From NCBI RefSeq assembly GCF_018531495.1, contig NZ_JAHDTI010000006.1, forward strand, positions 62,001 to 126,000: DNA of 64,000 nt, in the 5' to 3' direction. The stretch's first letter is position 1; every line of letters starts with the position of its first letter. Position numbers and translations under genes: made by a program. The DNA is from Nonomuraea sediminis. GTDB taxonomy: Bacteria; Actinomycetota; Actinomycetes; Streptosporangiales; Streptosporangiaceae. A model generated the notes under the pieces. That model did no database searches and was not told the DNA's origin. It worked only from the letters and a program-made list of their open reading frames with translations. Below are positions 5,039 through 64,000 of the stretch, piece by piece.

Positions 5039-6187
5039 GTGCAGCTTCGATACAACTTCCGCCTCTACCCGACCGCTGGTCAGCGTCAAGCGCTGGCCAG
5101 CGCGTTCGGGTGCGCGCGGACGGTATTCAACGACGGGCTGCGCATGCGACAGGAAGTCCGCGAGAAGGGCTTGCCGTACATCTCCGATGGAGATCTGTCC
5201 AAGCGGGTCATCACGCAGGCGAAGAAGACGTCGGAACGCTCATGGCTGGGCGAGGTGTCGGCCGTAATCCTTCAGCAGGCGCTCGCCGACCTGAACAGCG
5301 CATACCACAACTTCTTCGCCTCGATCACCGGCAAGCGGAAAGGGCCGAGGATCGCCCCGCCCCGATTCAGGTCGAAGAAGGACAACCGACAGGCCATCCG
5401 GTTCACCAAGAACGCCCGGTTCTCGATCACTCCAGGCGAGAAGCTGCGCCTGCCGAAGATCGGGGACGTGTCTGTTCGCTGGTCGCGAGACCTACCCGCC
5501 GAGCCCTCGAGTGTGACGGTAGTCAAAGACGCGGCGGGCCGATATTTCGCCTCGTTCGTGGTCGAGACGAACGACGCGCCGTTGCCGGAAACAGACAACG
5601 AGGTGGGGATCGACCTCGGGTTGACGCATTTCGCGATCCTGTCGGATGGCCGGAAGGTGGACAACCCGCGCCTGCTACGCCGGGCCGAACGCCGTTTGCG
5701 GAAGGCACAGAAGGCGCTGTCCAGGAAAGAAAAGGGTTCAGCGAACAGACAGAAAGCCAGAGTCAAGGTCGCCAAGGCGCACGCCAGGGTGTCCGACGCG
5801 CGCCGCAACTGGGCACACAAGTTCTCCACACAGATCATCCGCGACAACCAAGCGGTGTACGCGGAGAACCTGTCGGTGTCCGGTCTGGGCCGTACGAGGC
5901 TGGCCAGGTCCGTGCACGACGCGGGCTGGTCCCAGTTCGTCGCCATGCTGGAGTACAAGGCACGACGGTATGGCAGGGCGTTCGTCAAGATCGACCGGTT
6001 CTTCCCGTCCAGCAAGCTGTGCTCGGCGTGCGGGCTGCTGGCCGACAAGATACCGTTGAACATCCGAACGTGGGAGTGCGCCTGCGGTGCGACCCACGAC
6101 CGAGACGTGAACGCTGCGATCAACATCCTCGCCGCTGGACGGGCGGAGAGGCTAAACGCCTGCGGAGGGACCGTAAGACCCGCCTAG
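5039..6187 (+). CDS. tnpB: TnpB RNA-guided endonuclease of an IS605-type element
   Basis: 382 residues from GTG 5039. The N-terminus MQLRYNFRLYPTAGQ is the usual TnpB/OrfB start. The split RuvC nuclease is intact: Asp192 in IDLGL, Glu276 in YAENLSV, Asp356 in THDRDVNAA. A four-cysteine zinc finger (Cys328, 331, 347, 349) sits between the last two motifs. TnpB uses an omega-RNA made from the element's 3' end to cut DNA next to a short TAM, which preserves the element at its donor site. Full length and all catalytic residues suggest it is functional. It has no tnpA partner. Its start is controlled by a short divergent region shared with the antitoxin gene. Confidence 0.93.
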   Translation: MQLRYNFRLYPTAGQRQALASAFGCARTVFNDGLRMRQEVREKGLPYISDGDLSKRVITQAKKTSERSWLGEVSAVILQQALADLNSAYHNFFASITGKRKGPRIAPPRFRSKKDNRQAIRFTKNARFSITPGEKLRLPKIGDVSVRWSRDLPAEPSSVTVVKDAAGRYFASFVVETNDAPLPETDNEVGIDLGLTHFAILSDGRKVDNPRLLRRAERRLRKAQKALSRKEKGSANRQKARVKVAKAHARVSDARRNWAHKFSTQIIRDNQAVYAENLSVSGLGRTRLARSVHDAGWSQFVAMLEYKARRYGRAFVKIDRFFPSSKLCSACGLLADKIPLNIRTWECACGATHDRDVNAAINILAAGRAERLNACGGTVRPA

Positions 6188-53130: not shown

Positions 53131-54486
53131 GTGGAGCAACGCGGGATCGAGCTGGTCTCGGCGGGAGAGCGGTACGGGCGCCCGCGCGACCTGCTGTTCC
53201 TGTGGACCGGCACGACGATGGGCATCTTCACCCTCGTGTACGGAACCACCATCGTGGCCGGGCTGGGGCTGAGCTTCCCGCAGGCGCTGGCCGCGATCGT
53301 GCTGGGCAACCTGCTGTCCTTCCCGCTGGTCGGCCTGACGAGCCTGCAGGGCCCGGCCACGGGCACCTCCACGATGGCCGTCTCCAGGGCCGCCTACGGG
53401 CCCAAGGGTGCCCGGGTGCTGAGCCTGTTCGGCTGGCTGAACATGGTCGGCTTCGAGGCGGGCGGCATGGTGCTGATCACCTTCGCCGCGCTCGCGCTGC
53501 TGCAGCAGGCCGGGGTCACCAACCAGAGCCTGGGGCTGAAGGTCGGCGTCATCCTGGTGGCGGCGGTGATCCAGCTGGTGCTGCCGTTGATCGGGCACGC
53601 GGCGGTGATGAAGGCGCAGAAGTACTTCACCTTGGTGTTCGTCGTCCTGTTCGGCCTGATGGCGATCCTGGTCGGCCCCAAGGTCAACCTGTCGGGCGGC
53701 TCGGGCGCGGACTTCCCCATGTTCACGGTGGCCGTGGCGCTGGTGATGTCGGCAGGCGGCCTGTCGTGGGGCCCGCTGGGCGGCGACTACTCCCGCTACC
53801 TGCCCGCTTCGGCGTCCAAGAAGGCGATCTTCAGCTATGCCACCCTGGGCGGGTTCATCCCCTACGTCCTGCTGATGACGCTGGGCGCCGCGGTCGCGAC
53901 CGCCGTGAAGGGCAACGGGGATCCCATCTCCGGACTCCCCGGGGCACTCCCCTCCTGGTTCGTCGTGCCGTACCTGCTGCTGGCGATCGTCTCGCTGTTC
54001 GCGGTCAACACCACCGACCTGTACTCCTCCGGCTTGAACCTGCAGGCCGCCGGGATCAAGGTGAAGCGCTGGCTGGCGGTCGTGGCCGACCTGGTCATCT
54101 GCGTGATCATCACCTACATCGCGGTTACCTCTGACTCCTTCAACAGCATGCTCAACAACTTCCTGAGCCTGCTGATCATCTGGCTGGCCCCCTGGGCGGG
54201 CGTCTACATCACCGACTGGCTGCGCCGCAGGGGCCGCTACGACGCGCAGGCGCTGTTCGCCACCGAGGGTCCCGGCCAGATCCGCTGGCCGGCGATCATC
54301 GCGCAGGTCGTGGGCATGGCGGCCGCCGCGCTCTGGATCAACTCCACGGTCTTCGTCGGCCCGCTGTCGGCGGCCACAGGGGGCACCGACTTCTCCATCT
54401 TCGCGGGCTTCCTGGTCGCGGGCGCGGTGTACGCGGCGCTCGACCGCCGTCCCGCGTCCGTTCCTGTTCTCGAGGGGGCTTCATGA
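53131..54486 (+). CDS. NCS1-type purine/cytosine permease
   Basis: 451 residues from GTG 53131, chosen for the AGGAGGAG directly upstream; ATG 53104 is an alternative. Twelve predicted helices; the NCS1 family signature lies in LTSLQGPATGTSTMAVSRAA and the following helix, and GGLSWGPLGGDYSRYLP is typical of cytosine/purine permeases. It is coupled (ATGA) to the adenine deaminase gene, so adenine or a related base is the likely cargo. Confidence 0.92.
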   Translation: MEQRGIELVSAGERYGRPRDLLFLWTGTTMGIFTLVYGTTIVAGLGLSFPQALAAIVLGNLLSFPLVGLTSLQGPATGTSTMAVSRAAYGPKGARVLSLFGWLNMVGFEAGGMVLITFAALALLQQAGVTNQSLGLKVGVILVAAVIQLVLPLIGHAAVMKAQKYFTLVFVVLFGLMAILVGPKVNLSGGSGADFPMFTVAVALVMSAGGLSWGPLGGDYSRYLPASASKKAIFSYATLGGFIPYVLLMTLGAAVATAVKGNGDPISGLPGALPSWFVVPYLLLAIVSLFAVNTTDLYSSGLNLQAAGIKVKRWLAVVADLVICVIITYIAVTSDSFNSMLNNFLSLLIIWLAPWAGVYITDWLRRRGRYDAQALFATEGPGQIRWPAIIAQVVGMAAAALWINSTVFVGPLSAATGGTDFSIFAGFLVAGAVYAALDRRPASVPVLEGAS

Positions 54487-56204
54487 CACTGCTTGACGTC
54501 GCGTACGGCAGGCAGCCGGCGGACACGATCATCACCAACGGCACCCTGGTCAACGTGCTGACCGGTGAGCTCTACCCCGCCGAGATCGGGATATATCAGG
54601 ACAAGATCGCGGCCGTCGGGACGACCCTGGAAAGAGGCCAGGAGACCACGGTCATCGACGCCAAGGGCGGCTACCTCGTCCCCGGCCTGATCGACGGGCA
54701 CCTGCACATCGAGTGCAGCAAGCTGTCGGTCACCAGCTTCGCCGACCTGGTCGTCCCCTTCGGCACGACCAGCGTCGTGTCAGGCCTGGACCAGGTGCTG
54801 GTCGTGGAGGGCCTGCCAGGAGTCCGGCGATTCCTGGAGGAGTCCAAGCAGACCGGGATGCGGATCTGGTGGGGCGCCCCGGCCAAGGCCCCCTACACGG
54901 TCCCCCAGTCCACGGTCGGCTTCACCTTCGGCCCCGACGAGCACCGCGAGGCCCACACCTGGCCCGAGTGCGTGGGGATCTGGGAGACCGTCCAGGAGAT
55001 GGTCGAGCACGGCGATCCCGCCGTCATGCAGGCCCTGGAGCTCGCCCGCGAGCACCGCCTGCCGGTCTTCGGCTGCGCCCCGCTGTCGGACGCGCGCCGC
55101 ATCGGCGGCCTGGCCGCGGCCGGGGTCAGGCTCGACCACGAGTCGTATTCGCACGAGGAGATGCTGGAGAAGCTCCGCCAGGGTATGTACGGCATCGTGC
55201 GAGAGTCGTCGGTGGCCCACTTCCTGGAGGAGAACATCCAGGTCGTGGCCAAGGCCGGGGCGCGCAGGGTCGCGTTCTGCACCGACGACGTGCACGCCGC
55301 CGACGTGCTGGCCGGCGGCCACGTGGACAGGATGGTGCGCATGGCGGTCAAGGCGGGCGTCGACCCGGTGACCGCGATCCAGATGGCCACGGTCAACTGC
55401 GCGGAGATGTATCGCATCGACCACCTGGTCGGCAGCATCGCCCCCGGTCGCTTCGCCGACGTCCTCATCGTGGACTCGCTGGAGGACTTCAGGATCCGCG
55501 AGGTCGTGGCCGCGGGCAGGCTCGTCGCCCGCGACGGCCGGATGATCACCCCCACGACGCCGCCCGCGCGCGGCCAGGTCCGCCCGTTCCCCGTGCGCGA
55601 GGTGACCGCGGACGACCTCGCCATCAGGTCCGGCGAGTCCGAGGTCACGGTGCTCTCGCTGGGCTTCACCGAGCAGGTCTTCGTCCGCAAGCGCCGCGAC
55701 GTCACCCTCCCCGTGATCGACGGCGTCGTCGAGCCCTCCGTCGAGCAGGACGCCCTGCTGGTCACGGTCGTCGAGAGGTACGGCAAGACGGGCAACATGC
55801 CCGTCGCGGTGGTCAGCGGCATGGGAATCCGGCGCGGCGCGATCGCCACCAGCGCGGCGCCCGACGACAACAACATCATCTGCGTGGGCGCCTCCCGCGC
55901 GGACATGGCCGTGGCGATCAACGAGGTCGTGCGCCTGGGCGGCGGCCAGGTGATCGTGGTGGACGGCGAGGTGCGCGAGTCGCTGCCGCTGCCGGTGGCG
56001 GGGATCGTCTCCGACCTGCCCGCCGCGGAGATGGCCGCCGCCGAGACCCGCCTGGACGAGCTGGCCAGGGAGCTCGGCTGCGCGCTGCCGTCGCCGCTGA
56101 TGTACCTGTTCTTCCTGTCCATCACCGCCATCCCGGACTATGCCGTCACGGACCTCGGCCTGGTGGACTGTGTCAATCTCGAGGTCGTGGAGGTCATCCA
56201 GTGA
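54483..56204 (+). CDS. ade: Adenine deaminase (Ade family)
   Basis: 573 residues. Amidohydrolase-superfamily adenine deaminase: metal ligands in LIDGHLHIECSK (H-x-H), RLDHESYSHEEM, and FCTDDVHAADVL, then the family-specific C-terminal domain (about 370-573) with YGKTGNMPVAVVSGMG and ATSAAPDDNNIICVGAS. It deaminates adenine to hypoxanthine with bimetal catalysis. Translationally coupled to the permease upstream and to the next gene (GTGA overlap), forming a purine import and salvage operon. Confidence 0.95.
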   Translation: MTLLDVAYGRQPADTIITNGTLVNVLTGELYPAEIGIYQDKIAAVGTTLERGQETTVIDAKGGYLVPGLIDGHLHIECSKLSVTSFADLVVPFGTTSVVSGLDQVLVVEGLPGVRRFLEESKQTGMRIWWGAPAKAPYTVPQSTVGFTFGPDEHREAHTWPECVGIWETVQEMVEHGDPAVMQALELAREHRLPVFGCAPLSDARRIGGLAAAGVRLDHESYSHEEMLEKLRQGMYGIVRESSVAHFLEENIQVVAKAGARRVAFCTDDVHAADVLAGGHVDRMVRMAVKAGVDPVTAIQMATVNCAEMYRIDHLVGSIAPGRFADVLIVDSLEDFRIREVVAAGRLVARDGRMITPTTPPARGQVRPFPVREVTADDLAIRSGESEVTVLSLGFTEQVFVRKRRDVTLPVIDGVVEPSVEQDALLVTVVERYGKTGNMPVAVVSGMGIRRGAIATSAAPDDNNIICVGASRADMAVAINEVVRLGGGQVIVVDGEVRESLPLPVAGIVSDLPAAEMAAAETRLDELARELGCALPSPLMYLFFLSITAIPDYAVTDLGLVDCVNLEVVEVIQ

Positions 56205-57262
56205 GCGAGCCTGTCGAGCGAACCAATGAGCACGGATTTGTCGTTGACCGTTCCGACGAAGGAGGGACCGACAACGAGTTCATTGCCGGTCTGCCGAAGG
56301 CCGAGCTGCACCTGCACATCGAGGGGACGCTGGAGCCGGAGCTCAAGTTCGAGCTGGCCAGGCGGAACGGCCTCGGCCTGCCGTACGGGAACGTCGAGGA
56401 GATGCGGGCGGCCTACGCCTTCGACGACCTGCCGTCGTTCCTGAAGGTGTACTACGAGGGCATGGAGGTGCTGCGCACCGAGCCTGACTTCTACGACCTG
56501 GCGATGGCCTACCTGCGCAAGGCGGCCTCGCAGAACGTCCGGTACGCGGAGATCTTCTTCGACCCGCAGGCGCACACCTCGCGCGGCGTGCCGTTCGACG
56601 TGGTGATCCGCGGGCTGCGGCGGGCGCTGCTCGATGCCGAGAAGCAGCTGGGCGTGCGGGCGCAGCTGATCATGTGCTTCCTGCGCGACTTCCAGGCCGA
56701 GTACGCGATGGCCACGCTGCTGGAGAGCCTGCCGTACAAGGAGTGGATCGTCGGCGTCGGACTGGACTCCGACGAGAAGGGCAACCCGCCGGCCAAGTTC
56801 GCCGCCGTCTACGAGCGGGCCCGGCAGGAGGGCTACCTGCTGACCATGCACTGCGACGTGGACCAGGAGAACTCGATCGAGCACATCCGCCAGGTCCTCC
56901 AGGACATCCGGGTCGACCGCATCGACCACGGGGTGAACATCCTGGAGGACCCGGCGCTGGTCGCCGAGGTCGTCGAGCGCGGGATCGGCCTGACGTGCTG
57001 CCCGATCTCCAACGGCTACGTCACCGACTCGATGAAGGTCGAGGGCATCCGCAAGCTGCTCGAGCAGGGCGCGCGAGTGACGATCAACTCCGACGACCCG
57101 GCCTACTTCACCGGCTACGTCCAGGAGAACCTCGAGGCGCTGAACTTCACCCGGGACGAGATCGTCCAGGTGCTGCGCAACGCCTTCGAGGTCACCTGGC
57201 TGCCCCGCCATCTCAAGGACGGCTACCTGGCCGAACTAGAGGCAGCGGCGGTCAGGCCGTAG
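56201..57262 (+). CDS. Adenosine deaminase superfamily protein (atypical active site)
   Basis: 353 residues from GTG 56201. ADA fold: metal-binding LPKAELHLHIEGTLEPELKF at about 31-50, FFDPQAHTSRGVP, CFLRDFQAEYAM, RIDHGVNILED and INSDDPAYFTGY. The position of the canonical HAGE motif (catalytic Glu) reads HCDVDQENSIEH here, so that Glu is not in the usual place, while the His is retained. Similar HCDVDQ sequences exist in proteins annotated as adenosine deaminase, but the substrate could be another aminopurine or adenosine derivative. The third gene of the permease-ade operon; its end overlaps the convergent S1 gene by 11 bp. Confidence 0.88.
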   Translation: MSEPVERTNEHGFVVDRSDEGGTDNEFIAGLPKAELHLHIEGTLEPELKFELARRNGLGLPYGNVEEMRAAYAFDDLPSFLKVYYEGMEVLRTEPDFYDLAMAYLRKAASQNVRYAEIFFDPQAHTSRGVPFDVVIRGLRRALLDAEKQLGVRAQLIMCFLRDFQAEYAMATLLESLPYKEWIVGVGLDSDEKGNPPAKFAAVYERARQEGYLLTMHCDVDQENSIEHIRQVLQDIRVDRIDHGVNILEDPALVAEVVERGIGLTCCPISNGYVTDSMKVEGIRKLLEQGARVTINSDDPAYFTGYVQENLEALNFTRDEIVQVLRNAFEVTWLPRHLKDGYLAELEAAAVRP

Positions 57263-57467
57263 TCAGGCTGAAGCGCTGCTTGTCGTGATCGATCTGGGCG
57301 ATGCGCACCGTGACCGTCGCGCCTTCCGAGGGCAGCTCGTGCTCGACGAGCAGCCCGTGGACGCCCTCGATCTCGACGAACGCGCCGAAGGGCACGATCT
57401 GCACCACGTGCCCGCTTACGACGTCGCCCTCGCTGTGCCGCGCGGCGAACTCTTCCCACTGGGACAT
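57252..57467 (-). CDS. Small S1-domain RNA-binding protein
   Basis: 71 residues from ATG 57467, chosen because of the near-perfect AGGAGGTG 9 nt upstream. Residues 14-70 are one S1 (OB-fold) domain: GDVVSGHVVQIVPFGAFVEI, EGVHGLLVEHELP, and the end TVRIAQIDHDKQRFSLTT. It is a stand-alone S1 unit like small general-stress RNA-binding proteins. Function unknown; the strong ribosome-binding site suggests good expression. Convergent overlap of 11 bp with the upstream deaminase gene. Confidence 0.85.
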   Translation of the reverse strand: MSQWEEFAARHSEGDVVSGHVVQIVPFGAFVEIEGVHGLLVEHELPSEGATVTVRIAQIDHDKQRFSLTTA

Positions 57468-57610
57468 CTGCTGATTCACCTCCTCTCCCCTGCGGTCGCC
57501 ATTCGGACACGGCAGGGGCGGCGGGCCACGGGCCCGCGAGGTGATCAAGGAATGGCCGGGTAACCCATCTCGTCACGGCACTCGGCCGACCCGGCAGTCA
57601 CGCCCTTACG

Positions 57611-59119
57611 CTAACGCATGCGCAGGGCCAGCATGAAGTCCACGCGCTCGTCCCAGGAGGTCAGGGAGCGGCCGGTCAGCTCCTCGATCCGCCTGAGCCG
57701 GTAGCGCAGCGTGTTGACGTGCACGTGCAGCCGCTCGGCCGTGGCCGACCAGGAGCCCGACTCCTCCAGGAAGGCCTGCAGCGTCTCCAGCAGGTCCGTC
57801 TGGTTGGCGGCGTCGTAGGCCTCGAGCGGGCCGAGCAGCCGGGCGCGGAAGGAGCGGCGCAGCTCGGCCGGGATCGCGGTGAGCAGCGTGCGGTGGGAGC
57901 TGACGTCGTCGCCGGTGATCACGCTGACCCGCTCGCCGCTGAGCGCGGCCAGCGTGCGGGCGTGCCGCGCCTCCTCGATCACGCCGCTCAGCGCCGCGGG
58001 CCCGGTGGTCACGCTGCTCACGCCCAGCGTGATGCGGTCCTCGCCCAGCCCCGCCTCCAGCGTCCTGGCGCCGCGCATGACGTGCTGGGTCAGCTCGTCG
58101 GCGGTGTTGCCGGCCAGCGGCACCAGCGCGATCGCCTCGCCGCCCGGCGCGCTGGTCACCACGCCCGGCGCCAGCGGCCGCAGCAGCTCGTCGAGTACGG
58201 CGCAGCCGACGTCCCCGTCGACCGCGTGCAACGCCACGGCCAGCAGCCCGTGCTCGGTCTCCACGTGCAGCGTGTGCAGGCGCGACACCACGCCGGGCAG
58301 CGCGGCGTCGCCGGACTCCAGCAGCTCGAGCAGCTGATCGAGCACGCGCCGCTCGATGCGCTGGGCGGCCTCGAGCCGCGAGCGTTCCAGCGCGACCAGC
58401 GCGGCCAGCTCCACGACCAGGTCCTCGTTGTCGCCCTGCGCCTGCTCTCCCGCGTAGGCCAGGAACCAGTTGGCGATCCGGTGCGGCGCGCCCCGGCTGA
58501 TCGGGAAGACCGACAGCCCGGACACCATGGCCGGCAGGTGCCGGGCGGTGAGGAAGGTGTGCGCCAGGCGCCGCCGCTCGGGCTCGGCCAGCGGCTGCGA
58601 GCCCACGATCACCCGGCCGGTGGGCGACAGCACCCAGCACGGCACGTCCAGCTCGCCTGCCACCGCCGTGACGAGCTTGGTCAGGCTGCCGCCCTCGACC
58701 AGCGTGCTGGCCAGGCGGCGGCGCGAGCCGTACTTCTGGCGGGGCGGGGAGCCGAGCTCGACGATCAGCGCGCGCAGGACGTGCTCGGTGACCTGGCTGA
58801 ACGGGACGCTCACCGGCAGCGTGAGCAGCGGCAGGCCGGCGTCGGCGCAGGCGTCGATGAGGTCGGCGGGCGGCACGCCGAGCGCGGTGCCGCAGACCAG
58901 CGCCGCCACGTCGCCGAGGTTCTTCACGAACTCCCGCGAGGAGTCGGCGCCGGTGTGCCAGGTGAGCTCGGTCAGGACCAGCTCGCCCGGCTTGACGAAG
59001 CGCGCCGGGTCGGGCAGGTCGGTGGTGGCCACGCCGGTGACCCGCCGGTCGAGCAGGTCGTGCCCGGTCAGTACCTTCAGCGCGAGCTGGTCGGCCTGGA
59101 GCAGGTCTCTCAGCCGCAC
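57611..59119 (-). CDS. PucR family transcriptional regulator
   Basis: 502 residues from GTG 59119, with AGGAGA upstream. N-terminal PucR domain (about 1-125; LRDLLQADQLALKVLTGHDL...GLPLLTLPVSVPFSQVTEHV), a central GGDEF-like/CdaR region, and a C-terminal HTH_30 (about 440-500; AFLEESGSWSATAERLHVHV, NTLRYRLRRIEELTGRSL). PucR in Bacillus regulates purine catabolism; here it lies next to the permease-adenine deaminase operon and so probably controls it. Its start overlaps the tenA stop by 10 bp. Confidence 0.93.
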   Translation of the reverse strand: MRLRDLLQADQLALKVLTGHDLLDRRVTGVATTDLPDPARFVKPGELVLTELTWHTGADSSREFVKNLGDVAALVCGTALGVPPADLIDACADAGLPLLTLPVSVPFSQVTEHVLRALIVELGSPPRQKYGSRRRLASTLVEGGSLTKLVTAVAGELDVPCWVLSPTGRVIVGSQPLAEPERRRLAHTFLTARHLPAMVSGLSVFPISRGAPHRIANWFLAYAGEQAQGDNEDLVVELAALVALERSRLEAAQRIERRVLDQLLELLESGDAALPGVVSRLHTLHVETEHGLLAVALHAVDGDVGCAVLDELLRPLAPGVVTSAPGGEAIALVPLAGNTADELTQHVMRGARTLEAGLGEDRITLGVSSVTTGPAALSGVIEEARHARTLAALSGERVSVITGDDVSSHRTLLTAIPAELRRSFRARLLGPLEAYDAANQTDLLETLQAFLEESGSWSATAERLHVHVNTLRYRLRRIEELTGRSLTSWDERVDFMLALRMR

Positions 59120-59772
59120 GGCCAGCTCTCCTGGCGCCAGGCCGAGTCCCAGAACAGCCACTCGTAGCGGGCCGTGGTGAGCGCCCGCTCGAGCAGCCGC
59201 GCCCGCTCCTCGGCGCTCAGCGCGAGCCCGTCGAGCAGGTCGAGCACCGCGGCGACCGTCTCCTGGTAGCCCTGGCCGCCGTAGGTCTCGATCCACCAGG
59301 CGTACAGCGGGTCGGGCGAGGAGCTGGCCAGCAGCCGCTCGCCGACCTTGGCGTAGATCCAGTAGCACGGCACGATCGCGCCGAGCGCCTCGGGGAACGT
59401 GCCCAGCGAGCAGGTGCGGACCAGGTAGGAGGTGTAGCCGACCGTGGTCGGGCCCGCCGGGAGCTTGCGCGCGTCGGTCTCCTCCAGCCCGAAGGCGGCC
59501 AGCAGCTCCACGACCAGGCTGTGCTCGACCTCGAGGGTCGTGGCCGCGTCGGCGGCGAAGCGCTGCACGGCGGCAGGCTCGGGGGCGCGGGCGGCGCAGG
59601 CGGCCTGCGCCCTGGCGTAGTCGGGCAGGAAGTGCGCCTCCTGCACCACGTAGTGCCGGAACGCCTCCCTGGGCAGCGATCCGTCGGTCAGCCCCGTCAG
59701 GAAGGGGTGGGCCAGGATCTGGTCGTAGACACCGGCCACGACCTGCCACAACTCATCACGGAACCGGCTCAC
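59110..59772 (-). CDS. tenA: TenA family protein (thiaminase II / aminopyrimidine aminohydrolase)
   Basis: 220 residues. TenA fold: FRDELWQVVAGVYDQILAHPFLTGLTDGSL with the substrate-binding region at the N-terminus, RHYVVQEAHFLPDYARAQAA, and AIVPCYWIYAKVGERL carrying the catalytic Cys and Glu near 140. It hydrolyses amino-HMP or thiamin breakdown products for thiamin salvage; other TenA-like proteins act elsewhere. It is upstream of and overlaps pucR. No TPP riboswitch was recognised in its 5' region. Confidence 0.92.
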   Translation of the reverse strand: MSRFRDELWQVVAGVYDQILAHPFLTGLTDGSLPREAFRHYVVQEAHFLPDYARAQAACAARAPEPAAVQRFAADAATTLEVEHSLVVELLAAFGLEETDARKLPAGPTTVGYTSYLVRTCSLGTFPEALGAIVPCYWIYAKVGERLLASSSPDPLYAWWIETYGGQGYQETVAAVLDLLDGLALSAEERARLLERALTTARYEWLFWDSAWRQESWPCG

Positions 59773-60038: not shown

Positions 60039-60479
60039 ATGCCCTTGATCGCCCTCCTGGCCGCTCTGGTCGTGGCCCTGTTCGCCGCCAGGCGCATGCT
60101 GGCCGTCGTCACGGTGCGCGGCGAGAGCATGCGCCCCACGCTCGAGCCGGGCGACCGCCTCTTGCTGCTGCGCACTCCGGTCAGGAGGATCCGCCGCCGC
60201 CAGGTGGTGCTCCTGCAGCCGCCCGACGACCTCGGGACCTGGCGCCGGGATGCCCTGCCCAGCCCAGCCGCGGGCGAGTGGGTGGTCAAGCGGGTGGCCG
60301 CACTCCCCGGCGACCCCATGCCCGCCGAGATGGAGCGGGACCCGGACGCCGTCGTCCCGCCGGGCACGCTGGTGGTGCTGGGCGACGGGGAGTACAGCGC
60401 GGACTCCCGGCTGTGGGGACCCGTCCCGGCCGACCGGGTGATCGGAGTGGTCGCGCGCACTCTTGCCAGCCCCAAATAA
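60039..60479 (+). CDS. S26 family signal peptidase-like protein
   Basis: 146 residues from ATG 60039. A single N-terminal hydrophobic helix (LIALLAALVVALFAA), then the S26 fold: catalytic Ser in VTVRGESMRPTLEPGD (about 30-45), the general-base Lys in VVKRVAALPGDP, and the box E motif LVVLGDGEYSADSRLWGPV. At this size and with this box spacing it resembles the small actinomycete S26 peptidases, including those annotated as nickel-SOD maturation proteases, rather than a housekeeping LepB. No sodN is near. It is the first gene of the region that encodes the cysteine-rich peptide cassette, so it might mature that product; this link rests on position only. Confidence 0.85.
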   Translation: MPLIALLAALVVALFAARRMLAVVTVRGESMRPTLEPGDRLLLLRTPVRRIRRRQVVLLQPPDDLGTWRRDALPSPAAGEWVVKRVAALPGDPMPAEMERDPDAVVPPGTLVVLGDGEYSADSRLWGPVPADRVIGVVARTLASPK

Positions 60480-60491
60480 CCGCCTCATACT

Positions 60492-60519
60492 CCGACATGT
60501 CCGGACATAGCTCGGACAT
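60492..60519. promoter_or_regulatory. Operator candidate upstream of the ArsR-like gene
   Basis: ATGTCCGGACAT (60497-60508) is a perfect 12-bp palindrome. It is flanked by further half-sites CCGACAT (60492-60498) and CGGACAT (60513-60519), making three to four direct/inverted CGGACAT elements. It lies 15-42 bp before the gene at 60534, which encodes a winged-helix regulator that may bind it. Confidence 0.55.
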
Positions 60520-60533
60520 CGGGGGTTTGGGGT

Positions 60534-61409
60534 ATGCGTCTGGTTTTTACTGCCACGGGGCTCGCCGCAACGACGTTCGCCATCTCACCGCTCCACCACA
60601 CGCTCTTCGCCGCGCTGTGCCTGCGCCACCCGGGCTTCGCCGTACCCGGCTCGCCCTGGCGCGACCTGGCCCGGCGCACGCCGGCCAAGGCGTTGCCGTT
60701 CATCAGGCGGGTCCACCGCATCCGGCTCAGCAAGTCCGGCTTCCTCTGGGTCGACATGCCGCTGCCCACCGGGACCCAAGCCGTCACCGACGAGCTGGAC
60801 ATGCTGACCTCCTGCGGCCACCGCGACATCGCCGACGCGCTGCGCGCCTTCTACACCTGCTGCGTGGCCCCCGAGTGGAACGCGATCCGCCACCGGCTCA
60901 GCCTCCACGTGAGCAGGTGCGCGGAGCTGATCTCCACACGCGGCCTCGGGGTGGCCCTTTCCCACCTCACACCCCGCCTCAGCTGGGACGACTGCGCCCT
61001 GCACATCGACACCTCCGGCGTCATGCCGCCGCCTTTCGACCTGGGAGACAGGGGCGTGACCTTCTCCCCGCTGCTGTCGGCCACCCGCCACTTCATGGGC
61101 TTCGCCTTCACCTGTGACGACCCGCGGCCTGTCCTGACCTATCCGGTGGCCGACGCCCCGCCGCCGGCGGCCACCGTGGACACGCTGGCCCAGGTCGTCG
61201 GCCAGGCCAGGGCGCGGGTGCTGCGCTCGATCGGCTCGGGAACGGCGACCGGCGAGCTCGCCAGGTCGCTGGCGGTCAGCGCGTCCACGGCCTCCGAGCA
61301 CCTGACCGCGCTCCGGCAGGCCGGGCTGGTGGACACCCGTCGCGAGGGGCGCGCCGTACGGCACGTGCTGACCGCTCTGGGGCACGAGCTGCTCGCATCC
61401 ACTGCCTGA
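60534..61409 (+). CDS. ArsR-family winged-helix regulator with large N-terminal domain (DUF5937-like)
   Basis: 291 residues. The C-terminal 80 residues form an ArsR-like winged helix (ARARVLRSIGSGTATGELAR, SLAVSASTASEHLTALRQAG, and DTRREGRAVRHVLTALGHEL). The N-terminal 200 residues (starting LVFTATGLAATTFAISPLHH) are the extension found in a group of actinobacterial ArsR regulators and probably hold a ligand site; there is no obvious metal-binding Cys cluster. It lies immediately before the cysteine-rich peptide cassette, with 93 bp to the peptide gene, and is the likely local regulator. Confidence 0.85.
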   Translation: MRLVFTATGLAATTFAISPLHHTLFAALCLRHPGFAVPGSPWRDLARRTPAKALPFIRRVHRIRLSKSGFLWVDMPLPTGTQAVTDELDMLTSCGHRDIADALRAFYTCCVAPEWNAIRHRLSLHVSRCAELISTRGLGVALSHLTPRLSWDDCALHIDTSGVMPPPFDLGDRGVTFSPLLSATRHFMGFAFTCDDPRPVLTYPVADAPPPAATVDTLAQVVGQARARVLRSIGSGTATGELARSLAVSASTASEHLTALRQAGLVDTRREGRAVRHVLTALGHELLASTA

Positions 61410-61502
61410 TTTGTCGCATTTCGGCGGACGACCGAAATGATTGCCCGCAATTTTTCTCCTGGTGATGATCGATCCGACACTCCTTACACCCCAGGAGGTT
61501 CC

Positions 61503-61685
61503 ATGACCCGCACGCTGAGAAGGCTCGGCGACCGGATGCTCGGCACACTGCTGCCCTCCGCCACCGCGGAGGCCAGGGGCTGCCCGCCCGACTGCTGGTG
61601 CTACCACTGGCTCGACCACACCGCCTACTACTGCACCCGGTCCAACTGCACCACGTACATCGTCTGCTACGAGTGCTGCGACTAG
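61503..61685 (+). CDS. Cysteine-rich precursor-like peptide (8 Cys)
   Basis: 60 residues from ATG 61503 with AGGAGG 6 nt upstream. Two halves: a 26-residue basic amphipathic leader (MTRTLRRLGDRMLGTLLPSA then TAEARG) with no hydrophobic signal-peptide core, and a core that starts GCPPDCWCYHW. The core has eight cysteines (pattern C-x3-C-x-C-x10-C-x4-C-x5-C-x2-CC) rich in Tyr, Thr and Trp. Four disulfides are possible. Downstream genes encode a MauE-like membrane protein, a MauD-like thioredoxin-fold protein with CDAC, and an ABC exporter: a disulfide-forming and export kit. Similar short leader plus Cys-rich core peptides exist beside MauE/TlpA genes in other actinomycetes, but I know of no characterised member. 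The exact leader cleavage site is unknown. Confidence 0.8.
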   Translation: MTRTLRRLGDRMLGTLLPSATAEARGCPPDCWCYHWLDHTAYYCTRSNCTTYIVCYECCD

Positions 61686-61691
61686 GCACCA

Positions 61692-61719
61692 ACCCGCCCG
61701 CGGCTGCCCGTGGGCGGGT
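61692..61719 (+). terminator. Intercistronic hairpin after the peptide gene
   Basis: ACCCGCCCGCGG (61692-61703) pairs with CCGTGGGCGGGT (61708-61719): 12 bp with one G-U and a 4-nt loop, starting 6 bp after the peptide stop. No T-run. It probably acts as a partial terminator or mRNA 3' protector so that peptide message exceeds that of the downstream genes. Confidence 0.65.
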
Positions 61720-61738
61720 CCAGCCGTGAGGGAGAGGC

Positions 61739-62236
61739 ATGCAGTACGTGGAGCTGGCCTGCCGGGGCACGCTGGGCCTGGTCTTCCTGGTGTCTCTGGG
61801 CGGCAAGGTGACAGGTTGGCGCGCGTTCGTGGCCTCGGTGCCAGGCCTGGCTCCCGGCCTGCCTGCCGTTCCTGTCGCGACGGGCGTGGCCGGGGCCGAG
61901 GGGTGCGCGATCGTGCTGCTCGCGCTCCGGCCGGCCGCCGGCTACCTGCTGGCCGGGGCACTCCTGGCCGCCTTCGCCGCAGCGATCGCGCTGGCCGTGC
62001 GGCGCGGGGACCGGGCTTCCTGCCGGTGCTTCGGCCGGGCCTCGGCACCGCTCGGCCCTACCCAGATCGTGCGGAACCTCCTGCTCGCCGCGCTGGCCTG
62101 CGCGGGCCTGATCGCGCCCGCAGCCGTGTGGGAGCCCGCGGGCGCGGCGCTGGCGCTCGCGGTCGCCGCCCTGCTGGCGGCGGTGTTCGTGTTCTTCGAC
62201 GACCTCGCCGACCTTCTCATCGAGAGGAACATCTGA
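61739..62236 (+). CDS. MauE/DoxX-like membrane redox protein
   Basis: 165 residues with four predicted membrane helices (LACRGTLGLVFLVSLGGKV, GAEGCAIVLLALRPAAGYLL, TQIVRNLLLAALACAGLIA, LALAVAALLAAVFVFF). The motif SCRCFGRAS between helices 2 and 3 matches the C-x-C-F-G of MauE, the methylamine-dehydrogenase accessory protein needed for disulfide formation in the small subunit. It probably passes electrons from disulfide formation in the adjacent cysteine-rich peptide to the quinone pool. Its stop overlaps the start of the next gene by 1 nt (TGATG). Confidence 0.88.
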   Translation: MQYVELACRGTLGLVFLVSLGGKVTGWRAFVASVPGLAPGLPAVPVATGVAGAEGCAIVLLALRPAAGYLLAGALLAAFAAAIALAVRRGDRASCRCFGRASAPLGPTQIVRNLLLAALACAGLIAPAAVWEPAGAALALAVAALLAAVFVFFDDLADLLIERNI

Positions 62237-62715
62237 TGCCGTTCGTCATTGCCGCCGTGGTCATCGTGGGCGTGGTGAGCGCGCTCAACCTGGTGCTGAC
62301 GCTGGCGGTGATCCGCCGACTGCGGCACGTCGAGGAGCACGGCGGCGCCGTCACGCCGTCGCTGCTGCCGGTGGGCGCGACGATCCCCGAACTCGCCCAG
62401 GTGGGCCGCCCGGCGGTGATCGGCTTCTTCGACACCGAGTGCGACGCCTGCACCGCCCAGCTCCAGCCCTTCCTCGACCTGGCACGCGCCTACACTCCCG
62501 AACGGGTACTCGCCGTGGTGTCGGGACCGGGCGACGAGAAGTACACCGGCAGGCTGCGCGACAGCGCCCGCGTCATCGCCGAACCCGCGGGCGGCCCGGT
62601 CTGCCTGGCCTTCGCCAACTCCGCGTTCCCGGCCTTCTACCTGCTCGACGAGGCGGGCACGGTCAGGTCACGCGCGGTGACCGTGGCCGGGCTCGGCACG
62701 CCTGTCACCGCATGA
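62236..62715 (+). CDS. MauD/TlpA-like thioredoxin-fold protein
   Basis: 159 residues. One N-terminal membrane anchor (FVIAAVVIVGVVSALNLVLT), then an extracytoplasmic thioredoxin-like domain with redox pair C-x2-C in FFDTECDACTAQLQPFLD and the cis-Pro region SAFPAFYLLDEAGTVRSR. It resembles MauD, which works with MauE. Role: catalyse or isomerise disulfides in the peptide outside the membrane. Coupled to mauE (TGATG) and to the ABC transporter gene (ATGA overlap). Confidence 0.88.
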   Translation: MPFVIAAVVIVGVVSALNLVLTLAVIRRLRHVEEHGGAVTPSLLPVGATIPELAQVGRPAVIGFFDTECDACTAQLQPFLDLARAYTPERVLAVVSGPGDEKYTGRLRDSARVIAEPAGGPVCLAFANSAFPAFYLLDEAGTVRSRAVTVAGLGTPVTA

Positions 62716-64000
62716 CCGACCAGGCACCGCCCGGGCCCGGCGAATCACCGACCGGGCCGGGAGAGCTGGCACGCCGGGTGGCCGTCGTCTGGGGGCTCGC
62801 CTGGCAGGCGGCGCCGGTGGCCGCCTTGGCCGCCGCGTTCGCAGTCGTCGTCGGCGGCGCGCTGCCCGCGGTGGCCGCCTGGCTCACCAAGCTGATCTTC
62901 GACGGCCTGGCGGCCGGCCGGAACGTCCTGCTCCCCGCCCTCCTGCTGGCCGCGTGCGGCGTGGTCACCGCCCTGCTGCCCCACCTGACCGACTACGCCG
63001 ACGGCCGCCTGCGCCGCGCCCTGGACCTGCTGACCAAGCAGCGCCTGCTCGACGCGGTCAACCGCTTCGTCGGCCTGGGCCCCTTCGAGAACCCCGACTT
63101 CCGCGACCGGCTCAGGCTGGCCGAGCAGTCGGGCAGCGGCGCCTCGAGCCAGATCCTGAGCCCGTGCCTGGCGCTGGCGCGTGGGCTGGTGACCCTGGCC
63201 GGGTTCGTGACCGCGCTGGTCGTGCTGAGCCCGGTCATGACCGCCGTCGTGCTGCTGTCCGCGCTGCCGTCCCTGGGCGTCCAGCTCTCGCTCAGCAGGC
63301 GGCGGGTGGGCTTCAACTGGCGGGTCAGCCCCGCGATGCGCCGCCAAGCCTTCTACGCCGAGCTCCTCACCGAGGTCGAGCCCGCCAAGGAGGTACGCCT
63401 TTTCGGCCTGGGCGGCTACCTGCGCGACCGCCTGCTGGGCGAGATCCGCGCCGTCAACGGGCAGGAACAGGCGCTCGACCGTAGGGCGCTGACCGGGCAC
63501 GGACTGCTGGCGCTCCTGGGAGGGGTGATCGGCGGGGCCGGGCTGGTCTGGGCGGTCACCGGCGGCCGGATGGGCGTGGGCGACGTGGCGGTCTTCGCCG
63601 CCGCCGTGGCCGGAGTGCAGGCCGCCCTTTCGAGCGGGGTCGCCCAGTTCTCGCGGCTGCACCAGGCGCTGCTCATCTTCGGCCACTTCCGCGCCGTCGT
63701 GGGCGCCGCCCCCGACCTGCCCATCCGGCTGCCGCCTCGCCCCCTGACGTGCCCGCTCGCCGGGATCGAGCTGCGCGATGTCTGGTTCCGATACAGCGAC
63801 GACCATCCGTGGGTGCTGCGCGGGTTGAATCTCACGATCCCGTTCGGCCGCGCCGTCGCGCTGGTCGGCCTGAACGGCGCCGGCAAGTCGACGCTGGTCA
63901 AGCTGCTGTGCCGGTTCTACGACCCGCAGCGCGGCACGGTGCTGTGGAACGGCGTCGACCTGCGCGATGCCGACCCCGCCGACCTGCGCGCCCGGATCGC
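62712..64000 (+). CDS. ABC transporter, fused membrane and ATP-binding domains (truncated by window end)
   Basis: At least 429 residues from ATG 62712, open at the window end. N-terminal transmembrane domain with about six helices (WQAAPVAALAAAFAVVVGGA onward), then the nucleotide-binding domain from about residue 350: IELRDVWFRYSDDHPWVLRG, and Walker A VGLNGAGKSTLVKL. The signature motif, Walker B and the stop are outside the window. It is an ABC-B-type half-exporter like those that export peptides. No N-terminal C39 peptidase domain is present, so leader removal would need another protease, possibly the S26 protein at 60039. Confidence 0.9.
   Translation, partial: MTDQAPPGPGESPTGPGELARRVAVVWGLAWQAAPVAALAAAFAVVVGGALPAVAAWLTKLIFDGLAAGRNVLLPALLLAACGVVTALLPHLTDYADGRLRRALDLLTKQRLLDAVNRFVGLGPFENPDFRDRLRLAEQSGSGASSQILSPCLALARGLVTLAGFVTALVVLSPVMTAVVLLSALPSLGVQLSLSRRRVGFNWRVSPAMRRQAFYAELLTEVEPAKEVRLFGLGGYLRDRLLGEIRAVNGQEQALDRRALTGHGLLALLGGVIGGAGLVWAVTGGRMGVGDVAVFAAAVAGVQAALSSGVAQFSRLHQALLIFGHFRAVVGAAPDLPIRLPPRPLTCPLAGIELRDVWFRYSDDHPWVLRGLNLTIPFGRAVALVGLNGAGKSTLVKLLCRFYDPQRGTVLWNGVDLRDADPADLRARI

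Follow-up and report, generated by a model that had tools for sequence, protein, structure and literature searches.

A locus at the end of a 64,000-nucleotide stretch of Nonomuraea sediminis DNA (contig NZ_JAHDTI010000006.1, positions 62,001 to 126,000, from a 12.09-Mb genome; hereafter the window) encodes a 60-residue cysteine-rich peptide beside redox, protease, and export genes, and it is probably one copy of a dedicated actinomycete module that makes secreted, disulfide-rich ribosomal peptides. This interpretation draws on sequence and gene co-occurrence: a conserved precursor leader ending in an AxA box, a variable core with an even number of cysteines (Cys), linkage to the same neighbors, and a one-to-one pairing of peptide and thioredoxin-like genes. 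Open reading frame (ORF) translation and profile scans placed six genes on the + strand, at the positions and in the order that an earlier sequence-only reading had given (S26 peptidase, ArsR-type regulator, Cys-rich peptide, MauE, MauD-like protein, and ATP-binding cassette, or ABC, exporter). That reading treated the redox genes and the exporter as belonging naturally with the peptide, a view borne out by homologues that keep the leader, the variable core, and the neighbors. The features of the window locus are as follows.

60039..60479, + strand: S26 (signal-peptidase-I-like) peptidase (Pfam PF10502 Peptidase_S26, 75.5 bits, cut-off 22.9; NCBIfam TIGR02227, 71.3 bits, cut-off 47)
60534..61409, + strand: regulator with an ArsR-type winged helix at its C terminus (PF12840 HTH_20, 34.6 bits, cut-off 27)
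61503..61685, + strand: precursor peptide gene (60 residues; 8 Cys within residues 27 to 60; AGGAGG directly 5′ of the ATG)
61503..61574, + strand: precursor leader, 24 residues, ending in the AxA box A22-E23-A24 (from leader conservation, translation, and the ribosome-binding site)
61575..61685, + strand: precursor core, 36 residues with 8 Cys, plus stop codon (even Cys number, as in relatives)
61739..62236, + strand: MauE-family membrane protein with a CRCFG motif (PF07291, 69.1 bits, gathering cut-off 27)
62236..62715, + strand: membrane-anchored thioredoxin-like protein with a CDAC motif and a ResA/CcmG-like fold (AlphaFold and Foldseek)
62712..64000, extending past the window to ~64541, + strand: ABC exporter with fused membrane and ATPase parts (ABC_tran, 106.3 bits for the full protein)

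The arrangement recurs within the same genome, where a DNA search found four more places with the same ABC gene and neighbors, each with a short Cys-rich ORF of similar N terminus. Gene order in four of the five loci is peptide, (mauE), thioredoxin-like gene, ABC, and S26, with S26 reversed in L010; the window locus differs from the other four in having S26 upstream. MauE is adjacent in two of the five and ~3 kb away in L012, and it was not seen in the stretches retrieved for L010 and L013. Five thioredoxin-like genes of this family occur in the genome (E ≤ 1e-5), all at the five peptide loci, and a search for the peptide gave five strong matches (E ≤ 1.8e-11) followed by four weak ones (from 0.002 up). 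Strong peptide matches and thioredoxin-like genes thus share the same five places, one-to-one.

A search of named species genomes by means of the thioredoxin-like alignment gave 77 loci across many actinomycete genera, including Nonomuraea, Actinomadura, Streptosporangium, Microbispora, Micromonospora, Dactylosporangium, Pseudonocardia, Nocardiopsis, Thermobifida, Streptomyces, Arthrobacter, and others. Together with the five N. sediminis loci these make 82, among which (E ≤ 0.01) we recognized the peptide in 77, S26 in 74, ABC in 73, MauE in 58, and the thioredoxin-like gene in all 82 by construction; the family profiles were built iteratively from these same loci, so that the counts are not independent, and the threshold admits weak matches. 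At stricter scores the numbers were 72 for S26, 72 for ABC, and 54 for MauE (at least 100 bits). The 77 peptide-bearing loci hold 87 peptides, with the peptide on the same strand as the thioredoxin-like gene in 71 of the 77 and upstream of it in 61. A profile of the peptide only (E ≤ 1e-4) matched 52 of the 150 family genomes, 24 of 394 at class level, and 2 of 396 in a phylum sample (overlapping draws, with the N. sediminis genome in each count), and the highest number in one genome was ten matches. Linkage was also evident at 60 loci fetched by the peptide alone, hand-picked across ranks and genomes: 57 had the thioredoxin-like gene, 57 S26, 53 ABC (at least 150 bits), and 50 MauE, and 13 of their 75 peptides recur in the first set. 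In 25 control regions (20 from other parts of the same genomes and 5 from the window's first 60 kb) we found no thioredoxin-like, S26, MauE, or peptide match and one ABC match.

Precursors share a leader that, aligned on a conserved proline, reads xxDRLLxxLVPxxxAxA. Among 87 leaders (the P being the alignment anchor, and two start sites, L077 and L078, set by hand), the D at P-8 is kept in 84, the R in 75, the A at +4 in 84, the A at +6 in 85, and the pattern P...A.A in 83. None of the 87 leaders of the first locus set contains Cys, and the first core Cys follows 0 to 7 residues after the AxA box. A leader pattern blind to Cys, although itself derived from the same leaders, gave 78 matches among the 14,598 ORFs of the 82 loci, and all 78 were followed by a core of 15 to 70 residues with at least 4 Cys. 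The C-terminal end of the leader resembles a type I signal peptidase site. A Sec-type h-region before the AxA box was not found (as judged from hydropathy alone; best 10-residue value, median 1.01; 0 of 87 leaders above 2.0), and this low hydropathy disfavors Sec export of the peptide. At E ≤ 0.01, 48 peptides gave no match to Pfam and a single stray match to NCBIfam, a beta-lactamase model; a profile search of the PDB gave no relatives at E ≤ 10. Alignment of homologues, a comparison set beforehand as one that could overturn the sequence-only proposal, instead upheld it, returning a Cys-rich variable core, a conserved leader, and the same neighbors (48 of 58 nonredundant peptides aligned).

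The cores are hypervariable and align barely better than shuffled sequence (median pairwise identity over 500 random pairs, 0.45 for leaders, 0.30 for cores, and 0.27 for shuffled cores). Their Cys number is even in 146 of 149 peptides (84 of 87 in the first set, 62 of 62 further peptides), with 4 Cys in 11, 6 in 62, 8 in 54, 10 in 17, and 12 in 2. The eight Cys noted earlier in the last 35 residues of the window peptide are there (residues 27 to 60), but eight is the number for this copy only, one case among 4, 6, 8, 10, and 12. Kinship among the peptides was handled only roughly, by single-linkage clustering, which left 94 of 97 clusters all even at 60% core identity and 57 of 60 at 50%. Before trimming, 58 of the 62 further peptides were even; of the four odd ones, three included a Cys ahead of the likely start codon and one (L168) had a leader Cys, and the later count took in core Cys alone. 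Cys number differs in 3 of the 112 core pairs that are at least 60% alike, always by two, as in the related cores of L155, L166, and L167 (near position 6000 in each; 61 to 64% identical), where an indel drops two Cys together, from 8 to 6. The even Cys number is the strongest evidence pointing to complete Cys-Cys pairing in disulfides. Diversification is also seen within single loci: L150 (5334 to 11050) carries seven leader-bearing precursors with differing 6-Cys cores, six of them in one tandem run, near one set of thioredoxin-like, ABC, S26, and MauE genes. For the window, the predicted mature product is a 36-residue, four-disulfide peptide starting RGC, whose monoisotopic mass, if cut after A24, would be 4342.67 reduced and 4334.61 with four disulfides.

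We also compared the proteins encoded beside the precursors; two family alignments drew on 62 of 76 and 33 of 51 relatives, each plus the window. CxxC is kept in 137 of 138 thioredoxin-like relatives, CxC in all 104 MauE relatives, and the GxSMxP serine motif in 132 of 133 S26 relatives. The thioredoxin-like family starts with an N-terminal helix, after which comes a conserved RRL motif, and its AlphaFold model (pLDDT 91) resembles CcmG and ResA by Foldseek. The earlier label MauD is weak: the model TIGR02661, with a cut-off of 188.6 bits, scored 23.7 to 26.3 for three of the five paralogues and did not match the window and L013 copies. Other models matched as well, all under cut-off (StoA in four of the five paralogues, ResA in three, a PDI domain in three), and Pfam AhpC-TSA gave the window copy just 14.2 bits, again under cut-off. 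MauE and MauD had been read as an essential pair; a MauE and a thioredoxin-like protein are indeed present, but MauE is optional at the locus level (58 of 82 and 50 of 60 loci). Its AlphaFold model (pLDDT 93.3) is a helical bundle for which a fold search of the PDB returned nothing significant (best E, 1.1). The N. sediminis genome has MauE-family genes in 13 places (11 over cut-off), 10 of them away from module loci, so MauE could act from a distance; it also lies up to ~3 kb off on the opposite strand in L012 (10669 to 11184), L039, L067, L082, and L086. The stretch between module and MauE in L012 holds a large regulator-like ORF.

The window S26 protein has a hydrophobic N-terminal segment and the motif GxSMxPT. 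None of the five paralogous ABC proteins matched Peptidase_C39, and we therefore rejected leader cutting by a C39 domain of the exporter; a separate leader peptidase would be needed, which fits S26. The sequence-only reading had not connected this peptidase with the AxA leader, and the two together appear central to the module. The closest PDB sequences to the ABC protein are ABCB/P-glycoprotein-type exporters. The reported stop/start overlaps are present (TGATG for mauE and the thioredoxin-like gene, ATGA for the latter and ABC), and we count them as support for the module. A second ABC half or a protease had been envisaged downstream, but the gene 3′ of ABC (dapB by eye) lies on the opposite strand, so no second half follows, and the protease is the upstream S26. 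The six window genes matched no class-defining lanthipeptide, lasso peptide, or sactipeptide enzyme among their Pfam and NCBIfam results, in agreement with what had been read from the sequence.

The regulator is left out of the module's conserved core; L012 carries another regulator by reading. In addition to its HTH_20 match, the window copy scores 24.2 bits against DUF5937 (cut-off 27.1). Upstream of the module (54483 to 59772), reading suggests an adenine deaminase, an adenosine deaminase, a PucR-like regulator, and a TenA-like gene, seemingly unrelated.

Charge patterns bear on where maturation would take place. In 136 of 138 thioredoxin-like proteins, the side that follows the single anchor helix carries more positive charge than the side that precedes it. 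Among 114 distinct S26 proteins with a chosen start (5 of 119 were left out), charge is higher after the helix in 100, equal in 10, and higher before it in 4 (a cruder first count gave 99 of 132), and two housekeeping signal peptidases encoded in the N. sediminis genome show the reverse pattern, with charges before the helix, as expected. In MauE (mean of 34 proteins), net charge is +4.4 in the CxC loop, +4.0 in the other loop on the same side, and ~0 in the opposite-side loops; the C-terminal tail, at -1.65, would sit on the predicted inner side, contrary to the rule. Under the positive-inside rule, these patterns suggest that the thioredoxin-like, MauE, and S26 active sites would all face the cytoplasm. 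This predicted topology fits folding, and perhaps cutting, inside the cell followed by export; alternatively, export could precede cutting.

Two features by which ribosomally synthesized and posttranslationally modified peptides (RiPPs) are recognized are present here: a conserved leader with a variable core, and linked maturation, protease, and export genes. On modification of the core, the even Cys number bears indirectly. We infer the chemistry (oxidation or isomerization), the cut site, and the order in which cutting and export take place. In the proposed route, the precursor, with its conserved amphipathic leader, would be translated first; the thioredoxin-like partner, with MauE where present, would pair every core Cys into disulfides; the dedicated S26 would cut after the AxA box at the leader end; and the ABC exporter would carry the product out. 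The chemistry of MauE-type proteins is poorly understood, and MauE perhaps passes electrons to quinones. A bolder extension, which builds on the charge patterns and which we advance tentatively and think somewhat less likely to be right than wrong, is that these genes represent an unrecognized class of diversifying bacterial mini-proteins, in which a fixed leader and machinery would serve changing frameworks of 4 to 12 nearly always paired Cys that are folded and trimmed at the cytoplasmic membrane face and ABC-exported in folded form. The layout would be like that of animal defensins and cone-snail toxins. Assembly of multi-disulfide peptides in the reducing cytoplasm, ahead of export, would to our knowledge be without precedent.

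Several observations weigh against the proposed disulfide-peptide module. The product is a predicted one. Three of the 149 peptides are odd, with 7, 9, and 11 Cys, one each. Two of these, with 11 and 9 Cys, are encoded in opposite orientation in L024 (9541 to 9991), the sole locus with both precursors odd, and may pair with each other as a possible covalent heterodimer. Five of the 82 loci lack a recognized peptide, and at two of the 60 peptide-first loci (L174 and L191, near position 6000) the peptide has no other module genes within ~6 kb; these precursors would be orphans or relics. MauE is missing near 24 of the 82 loci and 10 of the 60, and its presence bears no relation to Cys number (p 0.36), for which reason we dropped it as an explanation of that number. 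The cytoplasmic side predicted for the redox and protease sites is an unusual place for disulfide formation. Finally, the modeled thioredoxin-like fold is closest to the reductants CcmG and ResA, so that the protein could reduce or isomerize rather than oxidize.

This last point underlies an alternative that we consider unlikely but worth taking seriously, namely, that the thioredoxin-like protein and MauE act as a reductase or isomerase, as in cytochrome c maturation, and either rearrange the disulfides or hold the thiols in reduced form up to export, with oxidation occurring outside, either spontaneously or by general oxidases. CcmG, ResA, and DsbE as nearest folds, the sub-cut-off StoA, ResA, and PDI matches, and the optional MauE are all consistent with it, but even Cys numbers would still mean disulfides in the end, and the direction of the enzyme would change without changing the product. 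That the peptide binds metal (as a metallothionein or metallophore would), with the redox pair just keeping thiols reduced, is suggested by its high Cys content and by the ArsR/SmtB-type helix-turn-helix of the window regulator; the metalloregulator match is, however, under cut-off (42.8 against 55 bits), 6- and 10-Cys cores are common (62 and 17 of 149), and no fixed ligand pattern is kept, which makes such a role improbable. Conversion of the Cys into thioethers or other bonds by an unrecognized enzyme, with disulfides incidental, seems very improbable. Many RiPP precursors are Cys-rich and the cores hold Ser and Thr at 7% each, but thioether rings take one Cys each, which would not impose the even numbers found in 146 of 149 cores, and the profiled shared genes are those of redox, protease, and transport functions, other neighbors lying outside the annotation. 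That the peptide belongs as a subunit to a methylamine-dehydrogenase-like enzyme, with MauE and MauD maturing it, a reading to which MauE and a remotely MauD-like partner would lend themselves, we regard as having next to no chance. The light-chain model PF02975 had no match in the N. sediminis genome, although the 14 control genomes were equally silent; the downstream neighbor is dapB-like by reading, and the MauD scores are far under cut-off. With no sign of a dehydrogenase on these counts, we rejected the subunit reading.

The role of the peptides is a separate matter. We give an antagonistic, antimicrobial-like function an even chance. The peptides could instead serve the actinomycete life cycle as signals or structural proteins, which we find rather doubtful; the hosts are differentiating organisms with large genomes, and no immunity gene was noticed beside the five N. 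sediminis loci, where no search was aimed at such genes, but the hypervariable cores, the several loci per genome, and the seven precursors of L150 look diversifying. If the disulfide-peptide module is as proposed, actinomycetes would have a large unmined pool of disulfide-rich peptides, the output of one small set of genes, the fixed leader and cut site would make a plausible tool for designed multi-disulfide peptides in bacteria, and MauE-type proteins would gain a testable small substrate.

Parts of the module have counterparts in known systems. Sublancin and other glycocins, with BdbA/BdbB, also have thiol oxidoreductases that are encoded in the cluster and serve a secreted disulfide peptide, but their core is glycosylated, their leader is of the double-glycine type, and their ABC exporter carries a C39 protease. 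Lasso peptide exporters of the McjD type are likewise ABC proteins without C39 that carry a folded small peptide, in systems with lasso enzymes and no disulfide module. MauE and MauD reportedly take part in maturing the small subunit of methylamine dehydrogenase (van der Palen 1997), a likewise paired MauE-family membrane protein and thioredoxin-like partner; there the client is an enzyme subunit, whereas here it would be hypervariable peptides accompanied by S26 and ABC, with a partner far under the MauD cut-off.

Further likenesses come from two papers. TMcin, a staphylococcal RiPP (PMC13252029), is modified by a disulfide and has a DsbA-like enzyme dedicated to it, along with a leader protease and an ABC exporter; like the module described here, it thus combines a disulfide RiPP with its own redox enzyme, protease, and ABC transporter. 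It differs in having one disulfide, a transmembrane peptide, an S2P-type protease, and a two-protein ABC exporter, and MauE or thioredoxin is not mentioned in the portion consulted. For Streptomyces, the decRiPPter study (Kloosterman et al. 2020, PMC7794033) lists three candidate RiPP families that contain MauE, one of them with MauD too; every family has a precursor with 8 or more Cys and no other mau genes; RiPP modification was proposed and no product was given in the portion consulted. One strain in that study is S. viridosporus T7A, and our L074, from S. viridosporus NRRL 2414, has the peptide, MauE, thioredoxin-like, and ABC genes. The sequence-only claim of an undescribed system must be narrowed on this account. 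The decRiPPter families resemble the module in MauE (and MauD in one) and in Cys content, but they are confined to Streptomyces and centered on MauE, and the same portion does not describe the leader, the AxA box, a role for S26, the even Cys number, the range of 4 to 12 Cys, or other genera. Within open-licence papers, as distinct from subscription ones, PMC7794033 alone was found to bear on such clusters (a match to "MauE" in PMC13192320 is an author name), and the shared leader, the cut site, and the even Cys numbers look undescribed. As far as the consulted portion of PMC7794033 allows the comparison, the module would be a wider and better-defined form of a known kind, disulfide-bonded ribosomal peptides, and was partly foreseen there.

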